A stretch of 64,000 nucleotides of DNA from Plazaster borealis (taxonomy: Eukaryota > Echinodermata > Asteroidea > Forcipulatida > Labidiasteridae). This document shows, one piece after another, positions 34,521-51,309 of this stretch. The DNA lies in the NCBI GenBank assembly GCA_021014325.1, contig JAJGQC010000611.1, positions 284,501 through 348,500 of the forward strand, read 5' to 3'. Within the stretch, counting starts at the first letter, position 1; each line of letters opens with the position of its first letter. Both the position numbers and the translations under genes were made by a program. The notes under the pieces were generated by a model that was given only the letters and a program-made list of their open reading frames with translations, had not been told where the DNA came from and did no database searches.

Positions 34521-35124
34521 AGTAACTGGGTGAAAGTTCATAATTCCATGTACAGCCACAGGCCTGCTTTGATCATGTCACCAGAGCCTCTTTAAAGGAT
34601 GATCATAAGTTTATGAACATCCATGATTCAAATCCTATAGACATGTAGTTATCGTGGAATACACAAACTGTACATCATGAAATACATGTACAATTGTACA
34701 TCATATACAAAGGTATGTTTGTTTCCTAATGGTACATTCATTAATTAGGAGTCACATTGAAAAGGTGAAATACACTGTTTTTAAAGAGTGCAATTATCAC
34801 AAAACATATTTATATTAAAGGTAGGCCTACATACATGTAACACTATTGTACATCACTGGAAAATAGACTGTGCAAGTCTGGCAGGTATTGGAACTTACAC
34901 TTACAGGACCAAGTTGCTCCTAACCATATTGAGTTTACTTGTGCCTGATTCAGTTTCTTCAAATACTTTAGTTTAACTTAGTTTATGACTATAAACAATT
35001 ATAATATTTGGGAAAGTGAAATGTACCGATGAAATATAAAAGTATTATAAATTTAATAGATGATAATTTTGCATCGGGGATAAAGAATGTAATTTGTTTT
35101 TACCCTTAGACCGTTGTGTATTAA

Positions 35125-35488
35125 AGGCACTGAACACGTTTGGTAATTGTCAAAGACCAGTGTTCTCACTTGGTGTATCCCAACATATGCATAAAATAAC
35201 AAGCCTGTGAAAATTTGGGCTCAATTGGTCATCGAAGTTGCAAGAAAATTATGAAAGAAAAAACACCCACGTTCTACAAGTTTGTGTGCTTTCAGATAGG
35301 AATAAAACTTCTTGCAAGAAGTTTTTATTATTTTAGTGAGAAACTACCTCTTTCTCAAAAACTACGTTACTTCAGAGAGAGTCGTTTATTACAATTTTTT
35401 ATAATATAAAAAGCTCTCCGTTGCTTGTTAACAAGTAAGTTTTTATGCTAATATTTGTTTTGAGTCATTACCAATGTGTACGATACCT
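35125..35488. mobile_element. piggyBac-like MITE with paralogous empty site
   Basis: TTAA lies on both sides (35,121-35,124 and 35,489-35,492). Joining the flanks gives GTGTATTAAGCACTG, which is exactly what stands uninterrupted near 35,730. The insertion therefore went into a copy of the tRNA-centred element's arm. Confidence 0.85.
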
Positions 35489-35539
35489 TTAAGCACTGAA
35501 GCTTTCCCGAGTTCTGTGAAAAAAAATCCTCAGGCAAAT

Positions 35540-35615
35540 CACTTGGGTGGAATTCGAACCCATGACCATTGCATTGCTAGAGCAGATGTCTTACCACTAG
35601 ACCACCCAGCTGCCC
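35540..35615 (-). repeat. tRNA-like unit, minus orientation
   Basis: T-arm word GGGTTCGAATTCCACCCAAG and D-arm word GGTGGTCTAGTGGTAAGAC on the minus strand. Same family as the array to the right, opposite orientation. Confidence 0.7.
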
Positions 35616-35799
35616 GGGGGCTAGAAGCAGTTAGAATCCTATGTTTAAGCAATGGGTACCGCAACGATTTAACACATGTTAATTTTGCATCGGGGATAAA
35701 GAATATAATTTGTTTTTACCCTTACACTGATGTGTATTAAGCACTGTATACTCAGTAGTTACCCGAGTAGTGCTAAAACATTTACATCTATTAAATCGT

Positions 35800-37430
35800 T
35801 GTAGTACCCGCTGCTAAAACATAGGATTTGAACTGCCTCTAGCCACCAGGCTAGCACGGTGGTCTATGGTATAACATCTGCTCTAGCAATGCAAAGGTCG
35901 TGTGTTCGAATCCCACACGAGTGATTTGCCTATTAAATCTTTGCGGTACCCGCTGCTAAAACATAGGATTTGAACTGCCTCTAGCCACCAGGCTATGGTG
36001 GTCTATGGTAAGACATCTGCTCTAGCAATGCAAAGGTTGTGGGTTCGAATCCCACCCGAGTGATTTGCCTATTAAATCTTTGCTAACACATAGAATTTGA
36101 ACTGCCTCTAGCCACCAGACTAGCACGGTGGTCTATGGTAAGACATCTGCTCTAGCAATGCAAAGGCCGTGTGTTCGAATCCCACCCGAGTGATTTGCCT
36201 ATTAAATCGTTGCAGTACCCGCTGCTAACACATAGGATTTGAAATGCCTCTAGCCACCAGGCTAAAACGGTGGTCTAGTTGTAAGACATCTGCTCTAGCA
36301 ATGCAAAGGTCGTGTGTTCGAATCCCACCCGAGTGATTTGCCTATTAAATCTTTGCGGTACCCGCTGCTAATACATAGGATTTGAACTGCTTCTAGCCAC
36401 CAGGCTAACATGGTGGTCTATGGTAAGACATCTGCTCTAGCAATGCAAAGGTCGCGTGTTCAAATCCCACCCGAGTGATTTGCCTATTAAATCGTTGCAG
36501 TACCCGTTGCTAACACATAGGATTTGAACTGCCTCTAGCCACCAGGCTAACACGGTGGTCTATGGTAAGACATCTGCTCTAGCAATGCAAAGGTCGCGTG
36601 TTCAAATCCCACCCGAGTGATTTGCCTATTAAATCGTTGCAGTACCCGCTGCTAACACATAGGATTTGAACTGCCTCTAGCCATCAGGCTAACACGGTGG
36701 TCTATGGTAAGACATCTGCTCTAGCAATGCAAAGGTCGTGTGTTCGAATCCCGCGAGTGATTTGCCTATTAAATTGTTGCAGTACCCGCTGCTAACACAT
36801 AGGATTTGAACTGCCTCTAGCCACCAGGCTAGCACGGTGGTCTAGTTGTAAGACATCTGCTCTAGCAATGCAAAGGTCGTGTGTTTGAATCCCACCCGAG
36901 TGATTAGCCTATTAAATCGTTGCAGTACCCGCTGCTAACACATAGGATTTGAACTGCCTCTAGCCACCAGGCTAACACGGTGGTCTAGTTCTAAGACATC
37001 TGCTCTAGCTATGCAAAGGTCGTGTGTTGGAATCCCACCCGAGTGATTTGCCTATTAAATCGTTGCAGTACCCGCTGCTAACACATAGGATTTGAAATGC
37101 CTCTAGCCACCAGGCTAACACGGTGGTCTATGGTAAGACATTTGCTCTAGCAATGCAAAGGTCGTGTGTTCGAATCCCACCCGAGTGATTTGCCTATTAA
37201 ATCGTTGCGGTACCAGCTGCTAACACATAGAATTTGAACTGCCTCTAGCCACCAGGCTAACATGGTGGTCTATGGTAAGACATCTGCTCTAGCAATGCAA
37301 AGGTCAGTTGTTCGAATCCCACCCGAGTGATTTGCTTATTAAATCTTTGCGGTACCCGCTGCTAAAACATAGGATTTGAACTGCCTCTAGCCACCAGGCT
37401 AACATGGTGGTCTAGTGGTATATCAAATAC
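35800..37430 (+). repeat. Tandem array of tRNA-like units, about 141 bp x 12
   Basis: Each unit carries TACCCGCTGCTAACACATAG, then GATTTGAACTGCCTCTAGCC, then a tRNA-like part: GGTGGTCTATGGTAAGACAT (A-box-like), GCTCTAGCAATGCAAAGGTC and TTCGAATCCCACCCGAGTGA (B-box-like), and ends TTGCCTATTAAATCGTTGC. Units start near 35,804, 35,946, 36,083 (short), 36,215, 36,357, 36,500, 36,642, 36,781, 36,927, 37,068, 37,209 and 37,351; the last is cut off. Eleven have the tRNA-like part. The D-stem GTCT/AGAC and the T-arm fold. The anticodon arm is irregular, so I give no isotype. Confidence 0.88.
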
Positions 37431-37439
37431 TGGTGATTA

Positions 37440-37793
37440 TTTGATTCTTTGTTTTGATACCATTTATTGTTTTAACTTCATTTTCATAACATTGAATTCA
37501 AGTCTCAGAAAATTTTGCAATCAAATATCAAGAACAGAAAAACCTCCATTGAATCAGAAGATAATACACTAAGGTTCTAATCTGAGTACATTATTTGAGA
37601 AACCATACAAGCATGTCAATGGTACAACACTTTTACATGTAAACCAAAGATGAATCATTATCATCTAAGCTACAAAATCACAATTTATGAAACTGCACAA
37701 ATTAAGTAGTATGTGTATTGTATGCACGATCTTAGGCCTATCTCAAGCTGGAGTATTGAGCAAAGTGGAATCAGTTTGTGATCTCTACTCACC
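37440..37793 (-). repeat. Leader-exon block, copy 2
   Basis: Partner of 18,300-18,673, including the donor GCTGAG|GTGAGTAG ending at 37,793. In this copy no TRIM coding exon lies downstream on the minus strand, so the leader exon is orphaned or serves another transcript. Confidence 0.6.
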
Positions 37794-38285
37794 TCAGCAC
37801 TGTGTACTGTTGACAAAGATGTAAAAGATACGTCTGCAATCCTGTCAGGATGTTCCTTGTTTTACAGCAGTCTTATTTCCTGGTGGAATGCAGGAATCTG
37901 CCTTAACAAATACAGTCCTGGAAACACCTTTGTAGCAAGGTTGTACATGTAGACCATAGGGCGAGCCGATTTTAACGCTTGTCTTGTACTCCACATGTTG
38001 TGACTACCTGAAACTTATTTAAGAATTAAGCATAATATTTTAAAGAAATTAATTTATGTGTTCCCACACTGGGAAGTGGAGCATTTGATGAAAAAGGTCA
38101 AATCGCGAATTTAATCCACGCACGTTGCTAAGACTATCAATTCATCCGATTGGCCCATCAGATCACAAAGTGACAGATTTTTGCTAGTCCGCCAATCAGA
38201 AAAATTGTATTAACCGGCTTTGGAACTGCGTCATGTGACACATGTACTGTGTCACCTGACATGCCTTGACGCTTGGTTCGCCGTA

Positions 38286-38640
38286 ATGATGTCTGTCGAT
38301 GCGAAATCTTATCGAAATTCGTCAAAAAATAGGTGTTTTGCTCATTGTTCTAGTGTTTCCGAAGACATCAAACCTTTTACGAGCAAACGGTGGAACACAT
38401 TTGTAAGCAGTGTGAATATTTGGAAAGATTTAGTGGGGTATCAGGCTGATGTAGCGAGAGCTTTTAGACGAAGTTCAAGTTGGACCTGATGCACTGGTCG
38501 ATACTGCAGGCTTACCAGTACCGGAATTTGGTGGCTATCACCCGGCGTGCTATCGCTATTTCACAGATTCATCCAAGCAAGAGAGGGGAAATTAAACAAA
38601 GAGAAACAACAAACAGATGCTGCATCATGTCAGACTTCAG
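38286..38640 (+). CDS. FEN1-like nuclease gene, exon 1 (frame breaks)
   Basis: First coding exon of the gene that continues at 39,885. From ATG it reads MMSVDAKSYRNSSKNRCFAHC, with a CFAHC pair, then PFTSKRWNTFVSSVNIWKDL. The frame then changes near 38,451-38,458 (one base too many or two too few) to ELLDEVQVGPDALVDTAGLP and GGYHPACYRYFTD, and again in AGAGGGG near 38,585 (one base missing) to KLNKEKQQTDAASCQTS. The donor is TTCAG|GTAAGCC, and the last frame joins exon 2 in phase (G+AA, Glu). The Cys pair and HPxCYRxFT resemble a zinc-ligand module seen at the start of these large invertebrate proteins. The breaks could be decay or base-calling errors. Confidence 0.6.
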
Positions 38641-39884
38641 GTAAGCCATACATTTAACTCTTTCACGCGTCGACCGTTAGCTAGCGACCGGTAAAATCCC
38701 TTCAGAAAAAAAATTGTAAAACGAAAAATAAAGATCGCACGGCCACACAGTTTTCAGAATGGGAAGGAAAGAGGACTCTTGAGGGTGCTATTGTGACCTC
38801 TTTTTTTGGGGTGTTTGCCAATTGCCATTTGCAAAAAAACGAGTGAACAATTATTGTGTCAAAATGATCAATTTATCACTAAAATAAATGATGCATGCAG
38901 GAACTTACATTTACATGGACTAAACTAATTTTAATGTCCGAATTTTTCACTCACAATAAATTGAGTCAACACAAACCTGATTTACTTATAGTCTTGCAGC
39001 TAAAATCAATTCAATAAAAACTTACTTGAAATCTGTTGTGGTGAGTTGTATGATTTAATCTATAATTATAATTTTATTATAGACATGAAAATTATGGTTA
39101 TGTATACATGAATAATGTTATATAGATTTCTGAAGACTAATAATGTCTATAAATCTGCCACACGTCAAGCCAGGCTCAATTTGTTGACATTTTGAAGGGG
39201 AAAAAATGTACGGTAGCTTATATGTAAAATCAAAAGTGGTAAAGGTTATTTTATGTCAACTTTAAGAAAAAATAATGGTTATGTTCACGTGAATAATGTC
39301 TTAGTTTTCTGACAGGTTTTGTCTAGAAAGCTGTAACACGGCGGAGCCAAGCTCAATTTGTTTGCAACCCCAAAATGTACCGTAGCCTATATTTGAAATC
39401 AAAAGTGGGAAAGGTGTTCGAAGTGGTAAAGGTGTTTTATGATGTCAACTTTAAGAAATTATATTCGCATAAATAATAACTTAGTTTTCTGACGGCTTTT
39501 GTCTAAAAGCCGTCATCAGCAACCATGCTCAATTTTTTTGGCAATGTTAACCTTTGATTGTTTTGTAGCATGTACACTTTGAACACCTTGAAATGTTATT
39601 TGTGCTTAGATTTAAACGGAATGTTCACATACAATTTGTGCATTATAATATAATGACATAGTTTAAAAAAAAATTCTCCACATTCATAACTCTGTCCAAT
39701 ACAGCCTGGTTTTTTAAGTATTCAAGTACAGTTTTGAATACAGCTGATTTTTTTTATAGCGATAAATCAGATAGCTACTGTTATGACTGTGTGAATTTTA
39801 TTTTAATTGCATGCATAATTGTTTAAACATGATTTTAAGTTGGAAAATCACCAATTCCTCTCAATTTTTGTTTTATTTGTACAG
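38641..39884 (+). other. Intron 1 with diverged tandem repeats
   Basis: It runs from GTAAGCC to TTTTATTTGTACAG. Three diverged units of about 190 bp lie at 39,080-39,550, sharing GTCAACTTTAAGAAA, TTAGTTTTCTGAC and AAGCTCAATTTGTTTG type words. Confidence 0.7.
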
Positions 39885-42800
39885 AATTGGAGCCTTCTAC
39901 GTCAAGTGCAGGTGGTCAAGCTCCAGGTCCGTCCTCAGCCTCAGCAGAAAGACGCTTGCGGTCAAAATCCCGTGTTGCTGGTGCTTCAACGCAGCCCTCT
40001 CTCTCTGCCCACATTCTACCAAAGAGTTGCATCATCTTTCTAAAATATAAATCTTATAAGGACTCTGAGGGGAAGAAAAAGAAGGAACCATTAATGTTGT
40101 GTGAACAGCCGGATGGTGGAAAACTAGCTACAGCTGCCAAAGACAAGAAGGACGACCACATTCTTCTTCAGATCCAGGACCGAGACTGCGTAGCAATAGA
40201 GGTGAGGTATCATCGCAGTTGTTTCAGGAGCTTCACTGTCTACCAATCGAGGAAGAGGGTTGAACCCATCATGGAGCAGAAGTATGGAAAGGCATTCGTT
40301 ACATTTTGCAGTTATGTTGTAGACAAGAAGATCATACAAGAGAAGCAAATATATAGAATGACAGCATTGAGAAGATTGTTTGTAAAAGCCGTTAAAGATG
40401 TTGAGTCTAAAGATGCATCGAGTTACAAGAGCTACAGCCTTAAACAACACCTGAAACGAAAGTATCCACAACTCTGCTTTCTTCAGCCCAAGAAGAGATA
40501 TGCAAGTGAAATGGTGTATGTCGAGACGCTATCAACTGAAGACCTCGTGCCAAGAGCAGTTGATTCTGAAGAATATGACACAGACACCACCACTGATACA
40601 GACACCACAGATGTTGATGAAATAATAGAACCTCCAAAGAAGCGACAAAAGGGCGGGAATGGTACTCGATCCAAACCTTCAATGGCTTCACTTCGAGATC
40701 GTTTCTCCACTGCACTGGACCTAAAGGAAGATGTCATGCAGACCAACGCCAGTCTACCATGGCCTCCAACATCATCTGATTTAACATTGGAATCTGCACG
40801 CACAATAGTATCCACCAAGCTGTACAATTTTCTAGCATGGGTTGTAGGTGCTTCTGCTGATCCAGAAGAAGAGGAGAAAGTGAAGATAGGAGCAGCAGAA
40901 GATCGTCGTATCCTTACAATTTGTCAAGATATTATCTACTTGGCTACAAAGGGGAGGAAGATGATGCCCAAACATACATCTCTATCAATGGCAATGCGTC
41001 ATCTGAGTGGGTCATCACAGCTGATTGGGCTACTTAACGGTTTTGGATATTGTGTGTCGCACACCATTGCTTTGGAGCATGATACGGCTATAGGGCTGCA
41101 GGAGATAGAGAAAGGTTCAAGTGCGCTTCCGTCCAGTCTGGAAAAGTCATCCTACACTACTCTAGTCTGGGACAATAACGACTTTGGGGAAAGAACACTT
41201 TCAGGAAAAGGGACGACTCATAACACAAATGGGATAGCTGTACAACATGCACATCTTGCTGCTGTAATCCCTAAAGCTTTACCAGCTCAGAGTATGAAGA
41301 AGACAAGACAACGATCTTTGCCCGCACCTGCTACAATACTGGTGAGATTCACTGGCCAGAAGAAGACATCGCCAGAGGCATTTGATGATTCTGTGGCGCT
41401 TGAGATGAGTCAGTACAACGATGTTCTACGTTCAAACAAAGAACAGGATGAAGCCTTCTATGTTGCAAAATCGTCACAGGAACAACTACTGCCATCTTGG
41501 ACTGGATTTAATCAACTGCTTTCATCCAATATCCCTCCTAAGGCAACAATAGCTTATTTGCCAGTGATAGATACCAGCCCAACTGATTTTAACACCGTCC
41601 ACACTGTACTACACCGAAGCTTGGAGATAGCAGCTCAATTGGCACTTCCAGCTATTGTGATAGTGGTTGACCAGGCCATTTATTGCAAAGCTCAAACAAT
41701 CCGCTGCAAGATCCAATATTTCTGAAGAAGATAGTCATTCGTCTGGGGGCTTTCCACACAACGATGACAGCACTTGCTTGTATTGGGAAGCGATTTCAGG
41801 AGGCAGGACTGCAAGATATTCTTATTGAAGCAGGTGTTGTAGCTACAGGCTCGGTGACTGGTGTGATGAACGGCCACAACTACAATAGAAGTATCAGATG
41901 TCACAAGCTTATGGCCGAAGCACTTCATTGCTTGCGCTGGCAGAGCTTCATGGGTTCTTTGGAAGAGGAGAAGCAACATCAGTACGGAGAAGCAGTGGCA
42001 TCTCTACAAGGGTCATTTCCAAGTGAATTCACCAACCAAGTTCAAGGAGAGTTGTACCAAGAAATGGTCAAGGAGTATGGGGATTTCATTGAAGAAGGAA
42101 AGAAGGATGCTACTTTCAAATTTTGGTCTTCCTATCTTGATTTGGTTGGAAATGTCCTCCTGTTCATACGTGCAACACGAGAAGGGGATTGGCAACTACA
42201 TCTTGCTTCAGTCAGAGCCCTGCTTCCTTGGATGTTTGCCTATGACAGAACAAATTATGCACGGTACCTGCCAGTTTATTGGTTCGAGATGAGCCAACTT
42301 TCTACCACTCATCCATACATTTACGACGAGTCGATGAAGGGTCACTTTGGAGTGCAACGCCAAGACAGTCATGGGTTTGCACAGGTGGCATGCGATATGA
42401 CCATTGAGCAGACAGTAAATAGAGACACAAAGACCAGAGGAGGAGTAAAGGGTTTTTCAAACAACCAAGGAGCTACAAACCGCTGGGTCAGAGGCCACCA
42501 TGAAAGAGCCCTTATCACAAGACAGTGTGAAGAAATGGCTGGAAAGGGTGAGAAGTCTTCAAAAAGAGCAGACCTAACAAAAAGCAGGATGACAAGGGAC
42601 CAGCAGGATGTAGCCAATATCATGAGTACCGTCAACAGCATGACAAATCCCTTTGTGGTCGATCAAGAGACAGATGCTGATGATCTTGTGCATCTCTCAT
42701 CAGGCATTGTTGCATCAGTCAGTGTGTGCTCAGATCTACTGAAAGCAGGGGAGAAGGGGGAGGTCGCATTCATCAACTTCGCCAAAACCAGACAACAAGG

Positions 42801-44481
42801 AGATGTCGATCTTAACAAGCCCATCACCAAGATGAAACTTAAGACATTTGCCGATTCTGACAAGACAAAAATCAACATGAAAGGGAAAGAAGTTGTGCTG
42901 AAGAGTGCCCGTGAGTTACTGGCAAGGCTCATCATCATCGGCCGTGTGCGCAAAGTTGATCAACGGAAGATGCTAAGTCACTCCTTAAGCCCATACCCAC
43001 CAGCCATTTGTAAACAAGATGGATGTTTAGTCAAAAACAACAAGGCTGCCCTTCTTCACCAATTGGAAAATTTACCGGAGTCATCCCCAACGTTGGATCC
43101 ACCGAAGGAGTCGGTGTGGATTATTGATGCTATGGCAATGCTTCAAGGCCTAATACCAAGTAGGATGCCTGCTACCATGGGACAGTTGGCCAAGAAAATC
43201 CTGAAGGATGCAGTTTACCAAGCCAGAAGCACCAGTTCTGATGTTGTCCACTTTGTCACTGACACATATCCCCCTGTTAGCATTAAAGGTGCAGAAAGAA
43301 AAAGACGTGCTGCAAGTGGGTCCCAGCGGATAAAAATTGCAAACCAGGACCAACCCGTTCCAAAGCAATGGAAAAAATTCTTGGCAAATGGCTTCAACAA
43401 GCAACACTTTGCCAAGTTTTTATATGAGACGTGGTGTGCTTGTGGTGAGGATGAACTCAAGGGAGTTGATGTATACCTGGCTCATTCTGAAGAATGCCAC
43501 AAGTTATCTTGTCGTAGCGGTACCACTGTCAGTGAAGCAATTCCAGAGCTATACTCTACTCAAGAGGAGGCAGACACGAGGATGATGCTACACGCAAAGT
43601 ACATCAGCAACATGGGTAAAAAGGATATCATCATAAAGAGCCCGGACACCGACATATTCATCATTGGCATTGGCGTGTCTGCCCAACTTGAGGGTTCCAA
43701 GTTGTATTTTCATACTGGAAAACAAGATAAGGAGCGCACAATTGATTTGAACGCCCTACAGTGTCATCTTGGAGAGGAAATCAGCAATGCCATTGTAGGC
43801 CTCCACCCATTTACGGGTTGCGATTCAGTTAGTGCTACATGTATGTATGGACTGGGAAAGACTAAACCCTTTACACTGGTGTCGAAGACTCCAAAGTTTA
43901 CCAAGGCATTCCAGGAGCTTGGAAAAGCATTCACACTTACAGATGACCTGATTTCTACTCTGGAGGAATTTGTTTGCAAGTTAAAAGGGATGAACGAAAT
44001 CAGAACGGTGAATGAAGCAAGATATGCTTTGTTTTCCATGGCTACAAGACAAGAAGACATCATGCCCCCAAACAAAGATGCCCTCGTGAAACACATCCAG
44101 AGGGCCAATTACCAAACCGCTATTTGGAGGCGCTGCTTAGAGAGCCAGCCAGATGTTCCGTCACCAGTTGGGCAAGGTTGGAAATCAGTTGATGGAGGGC
44201 TTGGAATAGACTGGATGGATATGCAACCTGCTCAACAGAGCATCCTTGAACTGACTTCATGCAAGTGCAAAAAGTCCAAATGTAAAGTCACAGAAGCAGA
44301 TGACCAGTGTTGTGCGTCTTTGGGTCTTCCCTGCACAGAACTGTGTGAGTGCAAGAACTGCAACAACATGGCTGCGCCAGATGAGGAACCAATCATTGAA
44401 GAAGAAGAAGAAGAAGCAGAAGCTAATGAAGGTGACAACTGTGACGATGAGGAGAACTTTGAAGAAGAGGAGTTGTTTTAA
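39885..44481 (+). CDS. Large FEN1/XPG-like nuclease with CXC tail, one frameshift
   Basis: Exon 2 begins AA TTG GAG after ACAG; TTG is not a start, it continues exon 1. The first frame runs to TGA at 41,725. The second, covering the rest, is entered by restoring one missing base near 41,706-41,711 (CTGCAAGATCC). Together they give about 1,530 residues. Visible parts, counted from 41,683 for the second frame, are: VRYHRSCFRSFT near the N-terminus; an acidic and basic low-complexity linker (40,560-40,650); WIIDAMAMLQ (about 475); FVTDTYPPVSIKGAERKRR (about 525); STQEEADTRM (about 626); IKSPDTDIFIIG (about 652); LHPFTGCDSVS (about 707); and a Cys cluster CKCKKSKC...CTELCECKNC (about 857-895), then a Glu-rich tail. 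The order Asp, Asp-x-x-P-x-x-K, Glu-Ala-Asp, Asp-x-Asp, Gly-Cys-Asp mirrors FEN1/XPG-type nucleases, and the Cys cluster resembles a tesmin/CXC DNA-binding motif. Function is inferred, and I know of no characterised member. Confidence 0.75.
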
Positions 44482-46130
44482 CATGTTCAGGTAGGTAGAA
44501 GAACCTCATATATCCCATAAATAACAGTCTCCTTTTTTACAGGAAATAAATAGTTAACAGGTCACCATTTTGGGATATGTTTGTGTGGGAAGTTTTCTTT
44601 GAAGACTAGTTTTACATTGTGGAATATGATCATTTAATTTTTTTGCTGATTGATTTATCACAATATTGATGCAAGATTTTTGTACATGAAGAAAATGGGA
44701 AGTTTTCACAGTATATAATTTGCGGCAGTAAACAGTCAATTGATAGGTTTTCTACTTTATAATTTAATATTCTTACCTTAGTTAGAACAGTCACGTTTTG
44801 TGCAAAGCAACCAACTTGAAGCTGAAAAACAATGTTTATATGCTTCACTCTATTTGCCAGCGAAATGTTTACGCAAGTCCATAGTAACTGAACCATGCAC
44901 ATCCAGGCACAAGAGTATGGGGTGTACTTTAGTATGGCGCTTGTTTAGATCGTGATTCAGGTTTCAAAGCCCGATCCAGTTGACATGGTGATAATCAGAT
45001 TGCATGTAACACTTCTATAGCGAATAATGCAGCATGATAAAACAATGAATTTTTTTTTTAAAGTTTGCACTTTATCTTATATTCTTATCATTTTCTTTCC
45101 TCTTTTGTCTTTGTGTGTTAAAGATGAGGATGACATGATAACCAGGTCCTTACAGCTCCCAACAGACTACAACGTGCGGTATGAGAACCAAGTCTTAACA
45201 GCTCCCAGCAGAATGGATCTGCCTTACTACCAATGTAATGAAAGTTGTATGTACTGTTCATCAACCTTGTTTTAATTGGTAAAGAAGCAGCACAAAGTAC
45301 TTGAATAGATTGTTTTTTACCTTAACATTTATTGTTTGTAAATGAACTTCCTCATTCAGAATAAGTGTTAAATCGATACAGGCTTTGTGGCAGAAAAATG
45401 ACAAACTTACGATTCTGGGCTTAAAATATCATTTTCAGGCAAATTTCAGTGCTTCTTGAAATGGCACACTGTACACCTTCACATCTAATATTTTGTACAA
45501 TAAATATGAAGTTAGACCACAACAGCGGTATCATATTCACTGATAAAAACCAATTGCCACGTGTATTTGTGAAAATCACTTGCACCAGATGCAGTCCTTT
45601 TTTAAAGGAATTCTTCTTTTAACCCTAACAAGCCCAAGCTATTTTTGCTCTTCCAGGCTAAAAGGGGGGGGGTCCCCAATATCTATATTATTGGTCTGAA
45701 TGCTATAATTTTTAGCACACATAATAGAGCAACTCGATATCTACAAGATGCAAACATTGGAATTTCTCAGGGTCACCATATGATCCGAAAGTATTTTAAA
45801 TAATTTTTGATGGTCCTAGGATGCCATTTTGTATTTAAATTCCCATTGAAGATACCCTCATTTCATTGGCTTATCAATACAAATATAACTGATATATGAG
45901 TTAATAGCTGTATAAATGTGTTTCTTCAAGCAGGCTTGGATCCTCGATTCTGATTGGTCGATCCATAGCAACAAGGAGTGTGATATAAACTTATATTGCA
46001 CGGCCCATATCATACCCTGCGTCTTGTGGGTTGTAACTCTGCGTATGCGCTTTTATAAGCTATACGCAAAACGTACAGCTTATAAGGAGTTTATGTAAAT
46101 TCAAAAGTGGCGCGTTTGCTTGAAGATACA
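44482..46130. other. 3' flank of the nuclease gene, no further gene seen
   Basis: AT-rich. A splice-donor-like CAG|GTAGGTAG lies 9 bases after the stop and an exon-like open stretch at 45,124-45,275 (ITRSLQLPTDYNVRYENQ), possibly a 3' UTR exon. Not supported further. Confidence 0.4.
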
Positions 46131-46133
46131 TTC

Positions 46134-46254
46134 ATTATCACATGCGAGTGGAATACAGAAAACATAGCGCGTCTGCGTCCCATATTTTGGCCTCGTTGGA
46201 TATGGGACGAGAAGCGCTATATTTTTCCGTATTCCACTCGCGCTTGTGTGATAA
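46134..46254. repeat. Imperfect hairpin element
   Basis: The left arm TTATCACATGCGAGTGGAAT (46,135 onward) pairs with ATTCCACTCGCGCTTGTGTG plus ATAA; the pairing continues through ATAGCGC and GTCCCATA to a loop of about 17 bases. Snap-back MITE. Confidence 0.75.
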
Positions 46255-46268
46255 CCTATATTTCTGAT

Positions 46269-46466
46269 CTGGGCCCAATTTTTATAAAGCAAGGAAGCAT
46301 AAAAACTTGATAAGCACAGAAATTTATTACTGAGCAGAAATAGGTTACCAGCCAAAATACCATTCAGTTTATATTGCTGCGACTGGTACCCCACTCAATT
46401 CTTGCTTAGCAAAGATATTTACTAAGCAGAATTATCTGCTTAACAGCTTTATGAAATTGGGCCCAG
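46269..46466. mobile_element. MITE with CTGGGCCCAATTT ends
   Basis: The ends CTGGGCCCAATTTTTATAAA and TTTATGAAATTGGGCCCAG are inverted. Internal words such as TTACTAAGCAGAATTATCTG resemble fragments at 1,655-1,725, 7,150-7,235 and 26,280-26,350. Target duplication not clear. Confidence 0.7.
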
Positions 46467-46469
46467 ATT

Positions 46470-47208
46470 TGAGTTGAAAATTAATTATAATGTACAAAAT
46501 AACAATTCACATAAATTTAGAAACAAAAACATTTTTTAATTTTTTATTTATTGTTTTGGCGCCATTTTTCATAAAAAAACAAAGAAACTCTAACATTTTT
46601 TTTTAAGTGGTGCTTCAAGAATGAAACATAATATTTACATGTATGTGATTTATTGTAATTAAATAAAAACAGCCTCAGTTACATTGTAAACTTGTTCATA
46701 TCAAGAAAATAAACTAAATATATTATTGGTTGCCATGACGAATGTATTCAAATTTTATATTAAAATGTTCGGTATAAGAATTTAGGAAAAGTCACAAAAT
46801 TTTGTTCGAATCAAACATAAACTGTAGACGTGGCAAACAAAAATGTGGTAGAGGGGGGGGAGGGGCACAATGCCCCCCTAGGGTTAAGGCGCCATTTTTT
46901 CAGAAGTGCTCCACTTGTGGAGGTGGGAACTATCAGGCTTTCGATAAGAACCACAATACCAACATTTTTGGCCATATTTTAGGTAGTCACAAGGAGGAGA
47001 CTACAAAAATCAGTTTAGGAAGCTGTTTTGACCCCATGCCCTATGGTCTAATGTACTGTGAAGAGTGTCCCCAGTTGCTGGATCAATACAGTACATGTAC
47101 ATAGTGAAAGTACAATGTACTACTGTACTGTGTGTTGACAATGAACTTGAGTGCCAGCAATGTTGAATGTCTGTTTGTCTGGGTTGTTATCAATGAACGT
47201 GACTACTG
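46470..47208. other. AT-rich spacer
   Basis: No gene recognised. It includes a G-run at 46,852 and an open frame at 46,802-47,104 without family motifs. Confidence 0.5.
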
Positions 47209-47210
47209 TA

Positions 47211-48527
47211 CCGTAATTTTCGGATTATAAGCCGCCCGGCGTATAAACCGCAATGCCCCCAAAAATAAAAAATAAGATTTAGGTGTCAGCATATAAGCCG
47301 CCCGGCATATAAACCGCAGTCGCGAGCTCACACAGGAGAGAGGCCGTGCGTATTTGCGGTCCTTTGTGGCGATGTGCAGTGACTGGCGGGCGGCACATTA
47401 GTCATTGTACGTCGCCACAAAGTGCGAGTTGCGTCGCAATGAAGTCAAAATGTATTAAAGTTAACACCACTGATCGTTTTTGTAATGGTCTATTAGGATG
47501 GTCTACAGCAAGTGGGCATATTTCTTTTTTATTTGTATCATTATTGTGACAACTGCAACGTTGTAGTTACCACGGTCGGCGCCGGTCGGTCCTGACCGGC
47601 CCCAGCTTTAAATGACCGGGGATCGAATTAAAAGTTAACAAACTCCGACCGGCATAAATTTATATATTATAATTATTAAAATTTTCCTTGAAATAAGAAA
47701 AAAATAAAGAAAAAACTCATTGTAAACTCCTAATTATAGTGTGTATTTATTTCCCTTAAAACAATCAAAACAATTTTCTTTTCCAAAACCTGCGATTATT
47801 GCTTACATGGGCCGCTTGAAGCTGTGTGAGTTGGCAGCAGCAGCACACACGAGTCGTATCAAAGTCTGCTCTAAAAAGCATGCACCCATCTCCGGCGTGC
47901 GTTTATTATTCAGAACGATGTCTGTACACGCATTTACTATGGCAGCCGGTACCCAGAAGTAAGCCATTTCGCAATGACGTTTAGCGTGTGATTTTTGTCT
48001 ATGTGGAAGGGCATCCCGACTATATTTCTTTTGCAGCTATCTCGTACCTCGTACTCACGATCGTGCCTTGTGATCGACCTCACTATATTGTGAGACATTA
48101 CGGATTATATGATGGGTCCGAGGATGAACATCATTTTGATGTTCAAAGTGTTTATAAATATGGACAAAAAAAACGGTCTTGTTGAACAGACAGATTTCCT
48201 TAAAAAACTATGGAGTAAAAATGGGACTTAAGGAATAAAAACGAGGCAAGGCCTTGTAACGGCGGACAAGGTTGGTGGTGCATAAAATGTTTTTTTAAAA
48301 CAATTTTCAGAGTGAGTTTGGCGGTGTATGATTTTCCCTGTCTGTTTTGTATTTGTTTTTAGAATATTTTACAAACGATCTTTCTTAAAATAATAATGTA
48401 CGCTGTTTTTTTTCTTTCTACAATATTAATATGTCGGCATATAAGCCGCCCGGCGCATAAACCGCAGGAGTTCAAAAAAAGGTCAAAATCAACGTATAAA
48501 CCGCGGTTTATAATCCGAAAATTACGG
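47211..48527. mobile_element. Non-autonomous TIR element with TA target, mariner-like
   Basis: The ends CCGTAATTTTCGGATTATAA and TTATAATCCGAAAATTACGG are inverted, with TA on both sides (47,209-47,210 and 48,528-48,529). Subterminal repeats ATAAGCCGCCCGGC and ATAAACCGC occur at both ends. The 1.3 kb interior has no recognisable transposase. TA duplication points to the Tc1/mariner group, by inference. Confidence 0.75.
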
Positions 48528-48529
48528 TA

Positions 48530-50380
48530 TGTACATTGTAAACAACTCCATCAGTGCATTTTGTGATGAACACAATAATAAAGTACAGTGACAAAAAGGT
48601 CTGAGCTATCAGCTATGGTGAAAAAATAGAACAAGGGTGCAACTTTGTGGCTTATTTTGTCACATCACTTTTTTCACCCCCAAACCATTTCCATGGAATG
48701 ATTACATTTAAAACTTACAATGTGTGTACATCAAGGGTGAGGATGATCGCATTTTATTGCATGGGCTTTAAGGTTTCAAAAGTGAGGTGGAAATAAAGGT
48801 CAGCTTTTAAAAAAATAATTTTTCCAAGATCCTTTAAAATGTTTACAATTTACAACTTGTAACTCAAGCTTTTATTATTTAAACTATCTCCAATGGATGA
48901 AATTAATTAAAAACAGCACAAATAAAAGTTCTTTTTAAACACAATTGCCACAATACACATTGTAGATGCTGTGTGAGGTGCCTGGAAGTCAAGATTCTCT
49001 TGAAAACTCATACACTCTTGAGGTCAACTTGTACACTCTATTGGTGAACATTGAACTCGATTGAACTTCATTGGACAGTGTATGGTGTATATCATTTGCA
49101 TTCTTTACTTTGGTTTTAAAAAATGCCATCCAATAATAAAAGATGTTTAGTGAGATGAGTATTCAAAGGCTGAGAAAATGTACTTTGGGTCAAAATAATT
49201 AGTTGTAAGTTGGACCTCAATTAAACTGTGTAGAAGACTTTTGTATCTGCACACAAAATCAGAGCTCCAGGAAAAATATTAAGATATTTTTATCTTTTCC
49301 TATCAGGAACAAATTGAAGACTGGGCTCATAGTGAGATATGATGTGATGTTAAAAGATGAAGAAAGTGGATTTACCTTGATGGTGTAATGTCAGTCTGCA
49401 GATTGCTGGAGCTTCAAACTTGATCTTTGTTTTGTCTGTAAAATATACGAATACTTTCTAGTTTTAGTGACCATCATGGTGTATACAGAGATTAGACGAG
49501 TAACAGATATGAGACTTGTTCTTGATTTCATATCACCTGAACATCTTCTGAAAGAAATGTCATTCTGGAACTTCATATTTTACAGAAGACGTACTGAGGG
49601 TCCTAACCAGGATTCCAGAAACATCAAACTAAAAGTGGTGTATATTTCATGGCAACAGTATTGTGTTACAATAACCATGTTTTATATCAACATATTAGGA
49701 CAATCGCTTCACATGAATCAGACTCAAGCGTCTTTCTCTACTTTAAGATGAAATGTTTTGTTCTGAACCAAATATTCTTTCGGAAATGCTTGCCACTTGT
49801 CAGCTTTACCTTATACAAGATAATTACTACACCTGCAACTATGTCTTCAAAATCATTTTGACAATGAATAAATAATTGTATTAAAAACATGTTCTCAACA
49901 AAATGTTGAACAAAATATGAAAGTGCTGCTTGCTTTTGAAATGACCTTCATTAATAATAGTAAACAATTCCACAAAGTTTCATAAACATTTAAGGTCTAC
50001 TTTTCATTAAACACATCAATCAACCAAGCCATGAGCAATTCATCTAATTTGTTGGTCACATTCTTGAGAAAGAAAGAGAAAGGGTATATTATTTTGAAGG
50101 GGGTTCATGCACATATTCAACTGTTTATTGTTTATTGTGATTTGGCAAACCTAAGAACTGATCACAGTTTGCCCAATGCCAAGTAAGACAAATACTGTAG
50201 ACTGTGCAAGTCTTGCGAGTATTCAAACTTCTATGACCAAGTTTGTCCCAACCATATTGAGTTCTATTTCATAACATTCATACAAGGTCTTCAGAGGGAT
50301 TGCATTCCTTCCTACGTGATGGCATGCGGATCACACAATACATTCAAAGGTTGTATTGTTATTCAAATAAGTCCAAGGGG
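48530..50380. other. Spacer, no gene recognised
   Basis: AT-rich; a short stretch near 50,200-50,270 resembles 34,860-34,950 (GACTGTGCAAGTC and CCATATTGAGTT words), so at least part is a dispersed repeat. Confidence 0.45.
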
Positions 50381-50399
50381 AGATACCCCTATATAAGCC

Positions 50400-51309
50400 C
50401 TGAATCCAAGACATGAGGCATCTTTTCTTTGTGTGTGAGCAGCATTGTGGATAACGATGGACTCGATTGATTTACTTGTAGAGCTCCCATCAGACATTGA
50501 GTCTGAGTTTCAATGCGGCCAGGCCGCTGGTGAACAGTCAGATGACACGCCAAATGTAAGCTTAGAAGCAAAGCTTTGGGCAAATTCATCAGGAATTCAT
50601 AAACTATCCCTCTCCATTGCCAGTATGCAAAACATGCTGACAAACATGGTAAAAAACCAACAGTCGGCTGCAATTCCAGTCGACAACACGTTTGATGTTG
50701 ATGATTTCGTTGGGCAACAGGGTAACTGTTAAGACCCAAACCAAAGTTTCGAGCTGACCAGTAACATGGAAGCCAGTTCTCCTGATTTTGATATTCTGTC
50801 TTGCAAAGACATCTATGAGACTTCTGAAGCCAAAGGAACAGAACTTTTCTCAAATTAGGCCGACAGGGCAACCAAAGCGGTAACACAACCGATTAAAAAG
50901 GAGATGTATACAAAGATCGCAGAAAAATATGCGACACCGGCTAATGCGCCGGCTGTATCTGCCCCCAGAGTTGACGCAGATTTGTGGGGTACTATTCCTG
51001 CATCGGCCCGCTCCAAAGACGTGGGCACTCAGCAAATTCAGAATTGATGCATCAATGACCCCGTGAGAGTAGGACGTGTTTTCGGGGAGCTCCACTCGCT
51101 TCACTGAGCACAGCAAATCTTGCATAATATATAAAATTATACGCAATGGACCCAAAGCGACCAGGAGGCCACCCGGCCGGTACGGCCTCTCGCCCCTTGG
51201 CCTCGGGTCATTAAGTCCCGCACCCCAAACTCCCCATTAAAAGAACAGGCGGCCTGAGCGAAGATTTCAAATCGTTCGTAAGAGCTACTCTCAAACAACT
51301 TCTTGCATA
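50400..51309 (+). mobile_element. DIRS element, 5' part with gag-like ORF
   Basis: An ORF starts at ATG 50,457 (MDSIDLLVELPSDIESEFQC) and ends at 50,732. Further on, broken frames read KIAEKYATPANAPAVSAPRV followed by DADLWGTIPASARSKDVGTQ, the pattern of DIRS-type ORF1/gag proteins (Tyr-x-x-P-x-N, then Pro-x-Val-x-x-x-x-Trp). A TATATAAGCC word lies before the ORF. The part then stops where the LINE begins. Confidence 0.65.

Follow-up and report, generated by a model that had tools for sequence, protein, structure and literature searches.

The nuclease of AcademX transposons is of the XPG type. In the sections consulted of a published account of Academ elements, target-site duplications (TSDs) are 3 or 4 bp long in AcademX and 9 or 10 in AcademH, and these lengths are tied to the encoded nuclease and helicase (PMC10045372). 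Here we analysed a stretch of 64,000 nucleotides, referred to as the window, from the sea star Plazaster borealis (contig JAJGQC010000611.1, positions 284,501 to 348,500). A first-pass annotation had placed a large protein with a FEN1/XPG-like nuclease core and a CXC-type tail at 38286-44481, and suggested a domesticated or still mobile transposon protein, or a part in genome defence. Our analysis indicates that the feature is very probably an autonomous AcademX-like DNA transposon, present here as a decayed copy, and that its one large protein combines a DDE transposase with a FEN1/EXO1-like nuclease.

Boundaries of the element

Comparison with a sister copy on contig C20 (C20:8136436-8151936) revealed that similarity is confined to 37958-47050 of the window and ends there, giving a mobile unit that exceeds the span first annotated (Table 1). 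The C20 copy has a 1547-codon open stop-to-stop frame, and its left inverted repeat is missing the first 8 bases. The flanking inverted repeats that the annotation had proposed looking for are present as an exact 13-bp pair, bordered on both sides by the same three bases. In a search of the window alone, three other hits tied with this true pair and a further one outscored it; the pair was picked out only once the C20 copy had set the boundaries.

The genome has three further families whose inverted ends start with TAG and resemble those of the window. At six of nine independent loci we found paired inverted ends and an exact TSD of 3 bp (ATG in the window, TAC at C4, TTT at C6, TAA at C10b, ATA at C7b and TTG at C3). 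The other three have no clean TSD or are unclear: C10a has both inverted ends with AAA and TAA as flanks, C20 carries the shortened left repeat, and C11 showed no clear end pair within the flanks fetched.

Table 1. Features of the transposon copy, in window positions
Feature	Position	Strand	Basis or remark
Whole transposon copy	37950..47050 (9101 bp)	+	match to C20 copy, inverted ends, 3-bp TSD
Left TSD, ATG	37947..37949	none	
Left terminal inverted repeat	37950..37962	+	13 bp, exact
Left arm, subterminal inverted repeat	37998..38009	+	12 bp
Exon 1	38286..38640	+	zinc-binding-like module, C..C...H..C; frame broken twice compared with C20
Intron, GT...AG	38641..39884	+	position inferred from C20 copy and relatives
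Exon 2	39885..44481	+	most of the protein; open reading frames 39887-41725 and 41683-44481
Second C..C...H..C module	40028..40234	+	approximate limits
Winged-helix-like DNA-binding domain	40277..40534	+	approximate limits; weak match
DDE transposase core	41171..42408	+	D 41171-41173, D 41669-41671, E 42406-42408; structure predicted on relative P0060
FEN1/EXO1-like nuclease domain	43039..44166	+	predicted fold, residue pattern, alignment
Acidic codons of nuclease	43126, 43261, 43567, 43573, 43645, 43651, 43822	+	
Single CXC-like cysteine cluster	44260..44364	+	
Right arm, subterminal inverted repeat	46981..46992	-	12 bp
Right terminal inverted repeat	47038..47050	-	13 bp, exact
Right TSD, ATG	47051..47053	none	

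The encoded protein

In relatives, among them P0099 and P0100, the protein is about 1,650 amino acids long. From the N-terminus it carries two zinc-binding-like modules and a winged-helix-like domain, followed by a DDE core that contains a helical insertion, the FEN1/EXO1-like nuclease and a CXC-like motif. The two reading frames of the first-pass annotation belong to one protein in relatives, to which an exon and an intron are added upstream. What separates them in the window is a frame break of one base, at about 41705 and inside the DDE core; relatives such as P0001, P0002 and P0003 read across this point as one protein. Exon 1 is open in C20 and matches 21 of 265 proteins near their N-termini (E 1e-3), with 69% for P0066 and 61% for P0100. 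In the second zinc-binding-like module the second cysteine of the first pair is phenylalanine in the window and cysteine in C20.

The transposase had been overlooked in the annotation. In the predicted structure its helical insertion precedes the final glutamate; Foldseek alone returned no match to this model with an E value under 0.34. Pfam DUF6589 (PF20231) overlaps the core and may be part of the transposase catalytic domain. It scored 16.5 bits for the window and at best 24.5 among seven relatives scanned, below the cut-off of 27 in each case, and is precomputed for P0007, P0041 and a few other relatives.

The nuclease motifs lie on the plus strand within the annotated span, in the order WIIDAMAMLQ, FVTDTYPPVSIKGAERKRR, STQEEADTRM, IKSPDTDIFIIG and FTGCDSVS, followed by CKCKKSKC...CECKNC. 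To examine their conservation we aligned 199 rows from the 265 proteins and kept 160 for coverage, dropping 39; near-identical rows were not thinned. The seven acidic positions hardly vary (D76 157/160, D121 158/160, E223 160/160, D225 160/160, D249 158/160, D251 160/160 and D308 158/160). They occur jointly in 152 of the 160 rows, in the same order as in FEN1, EXO1 and XPG. Elsewhere in the domain, twenty further Asp or Glu positions are acidic in 30% of cases on average, although one (E132) is itself conserved; the motifs are thus not a chance arrangement. The comparison draws on the E-A-D spacing of EXO1 and on the metal-binding residue numbers of EXO1 and FEN1. The window nuclease has two residues more than C20 directly after GCD-SVSA. 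The predicted structure has the overall FEN1/EXO1/XPG fold, and profile alignment matches two of its stretches to EXO1, an agreement that is not significant alone. No Pfam XPG or XRN nuclease family was among the 21 families matched at E 0.5 by 34 members. Together, predicted fold and residue pattern indicate that the annotation was right to call the nuclease FEN1/XPG-like; given the DDE transposase, we consider it an accessory domain. The alignments and models thus place two conserved catalytic centres within one polypeptide.

The CXC-type tail also held up, as a single CXC-like motif. The cluster gave a profile match to the second CXC motif of LIN54 (E 6e-4), and Pfam TCR (tesmin/TSO1 CXC) was above its cut-off in three of the seven relatives scanned (P0007, P0012 and P0025) and matched 13 of 34 members at E 0.5; a Pfam CXC/TCR scan of the window copy itself gave no hit. 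We guessed that the tail might target LIN54-type CHR motifs near the element ends. These were not enriched at both ends in any of four elements; C10b and C7b have two on the left side but lack them on the right.

Copies in the genome and decay of the window copy

We searched the assembly that contains the window (560,608,030 bases in 717 contigs) at the protein level; with 50 of 314 candidates scored, this gave at least 56 matches, several per copy. The independent loci fall into separate families, namely the window, C10a/C4/C6, C10b/C7b and C3. Between families only short stretches are shared, at 64-88% DNA identity, and within the two multi-copy families the copies are approximately 94-99% alike. 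The two ends of the window element and their flanks are identical in eight duplicated copies, and a ninth (C385) has the same left end. Because the similarity continues through the flanks, these were counted as one insertion.

The element sits inside a large segmental duplication (window about 35070-50930) found in nine other places, many of them on short contigs: two more on C515, and one each on C607, C625, C642, C666, C687, C7 and C385. Across most of the stretch compared, roughly 15 kb, these places are about 92-99% alike. The window also holds, at 35788-37420, a tandem array of about 9 to 11 units of 142 bp. Every unit contains a sequence resembling tRNA-Ala(AGC), and ARAGORN called three tRNA-Ala genes within the array, with a fourth call on the opposite strand just upstream.

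Relative to C20 the window copy carries 9 synonymous and 32 non-synonymous changes, a ratio of non-synonymous to synonymous proportions (pN/pS) of 1.0, so in these few changes there is no sign of purifying selection on the window copy. Against the same C20 reference, three of the nine duplicated copies gave 0.99 (C607), 0.81 (C642) and 0.59 (C687), all from small numbers. Judged from sequence, the few changes are broadly consistent with neutral decay. Several frame breaks of other copies fall in single-base runs, so some may be assembly errors. The active sites are kept in proteins that range from 27 to 90% identity to the window piece, which shows selection during the active life of the elements. 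The window copy would have lost its frame and been carried along in the duplication of its chromosome block. The suggestion of a still mobile transposon protein fits the family, although the window copy is decayed.

Relatives in other animals

Family proteins occur across animals, in a sponge, cnidarians, molluscs, arthropods, echinoderms, a hemichordate, a tunicate, fish and hagfish. Most are unnamed and the remainder are mainly called uncharacterized, hypothetical or Tesmin/TSO1-like CXC. Among named proteins the nearest belong to Strongylocentrotus purpuratus, at 90%, and to Diadema setosum, at 88% across 27% of the query. By themselves these matches would suggest a sea urchin as the probable host. 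Three proteins named KIF12, VIP36 and PDCD4 (P0237, P0115 and P0254) match the transposase or nuclease, and probably reflect gene models merged with a copy of the transposon.

Discussion

We file the element as AcademX-like, a known kind of transposon, on the basis of described features. The features examined were a DDE transposase and a co-encoded nuclease, both present, and a TSD of 3 or 4 bp, present at six of the nine loci. The transposase alignment also served as a profile to find AcademH relatives that carry a helicase; among the 113 proteins listed there was no helicase name and no helicase Pfam accession. In the collection of papers searched, we found none joining Academ transposons with XPG, or an XPG nuclease with a transposase or TSD, no mention of DUF6589, and none on a CXC domain with a transposase in sea urchin.

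It could be argued that the element belongs to a separate, unnamed superfamily that resembles AcademX only in its nuclease and 3-bp duplications. The likeness does rest on described features, and neither the CXC tail nor the DUF6589-like core carries an Academ label in the literature and database sources examined. Against this, both AcademX features that were open to test are present, and we consider a separate superfamily unlikely. The identity of the C-terminal enzyme raises a similar question. Foldseek placed XRN1 and XRN2, together with Rat1, in rows 1 to 12 (best E 4e-6), with EXO1 first appearing at rank 13, which would suit an XRN-type 5'-3' exoribonuclease rather than a flap-type DNA nuclease. 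The domain shares with EXO1, FEN1 and XPG the fold, the order of the seven acidic residues, an S.K..ER.RR stretch and GCD followed by G.G, and an XRN-type enzyme seems to us improbable.

A host nuclease gene of transposon origin, retained by the host, would account for the unbroken C20 frame in a copy that may be immobile through its shortened repeat, and for the ratio of 0.59 in one of four comparisons. However, the pN/pS of 1.0 between window and C20 makes host constraint not evident, the window copy is frame-broken with inverted repeats and TSD still present, and many diverged families coexist within one genome. Domestication is thus very improbable, and the same signs of a decayed, neutrally changing insertion do not favour genome defence. 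The AcademX-like transposon remains our preferred reading.

How might the two centres of the AcademX-like protein work together? The zinc-binding-like modules, winged-helix part and CXC tail would bind DNA, with the N-terminal modules and tail holding the element ends. The DDE site would cut the ends and join them to the target across a stagger of 3 bp; of this, the DDE domain and duplications of that length are observed, and the chemistry is inferred. Hermes, RAG1 and Transib make hairpins on flanking DNA, and hairpin-making by relatives of this DDE fold would provide a natural task for a flap- or hairpin-type nuclease. From its fold and active-site conservation, the nuclease may remove 5' flaps or open hairpin or branched intermediates of excision or integration. 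We tentatively suggest, as a possibility that we hold less likely than not, that it acts directly in transposition, processing DDE-made hairpin or 5'-flap intermediates and helping to fix the 3-bp duplication. If so, one polypeptide would cover jobs split between RAG and Artemis, or between a transposase and host FEN1/EXO1. The combination of DDE transposase and conserved flap-type site gives the mostly unnamed family proteins a likely function, suggests that DUF6589 describes part of a DDE core, and offers for experimental test a transposase with a repair-type nuclease of its own.

Comparison with known systems sets the element apart in several respects. The CXC motif is shared with LIN54 and tesmin, with one motif in the present protein and two in the LIN54 chain. 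The nuclease differs from EXO1, FEN1 and XPG in being fused to a transposase and in matching no Pfam nuclease family by sequence. Like our element, Hermes (a hAT element), Transib and RAG1 have an RNase H-like DDE core in which a helical insertion precedes the final acidic residue; identity is 8-10% over the aligned parts. hAT elements make TSDs of 8 bp, and Transib and RAG TSDs of 5 bp, against 3 bp here. KolobokP and KolobokD, in the part of their description consulted, are also DDE transposons with an accessory nuclease; they differ in nuclease type (His-Me finger or DEDDh) and in their 4-bp TTAA TSDs (PMC9587614). AcademX, within the sections cited above, is alike in its DDE transposase and nuclease, and the 3-bp TSD of our element falls inside its range of 3 or 4 bp (PMC10045372).
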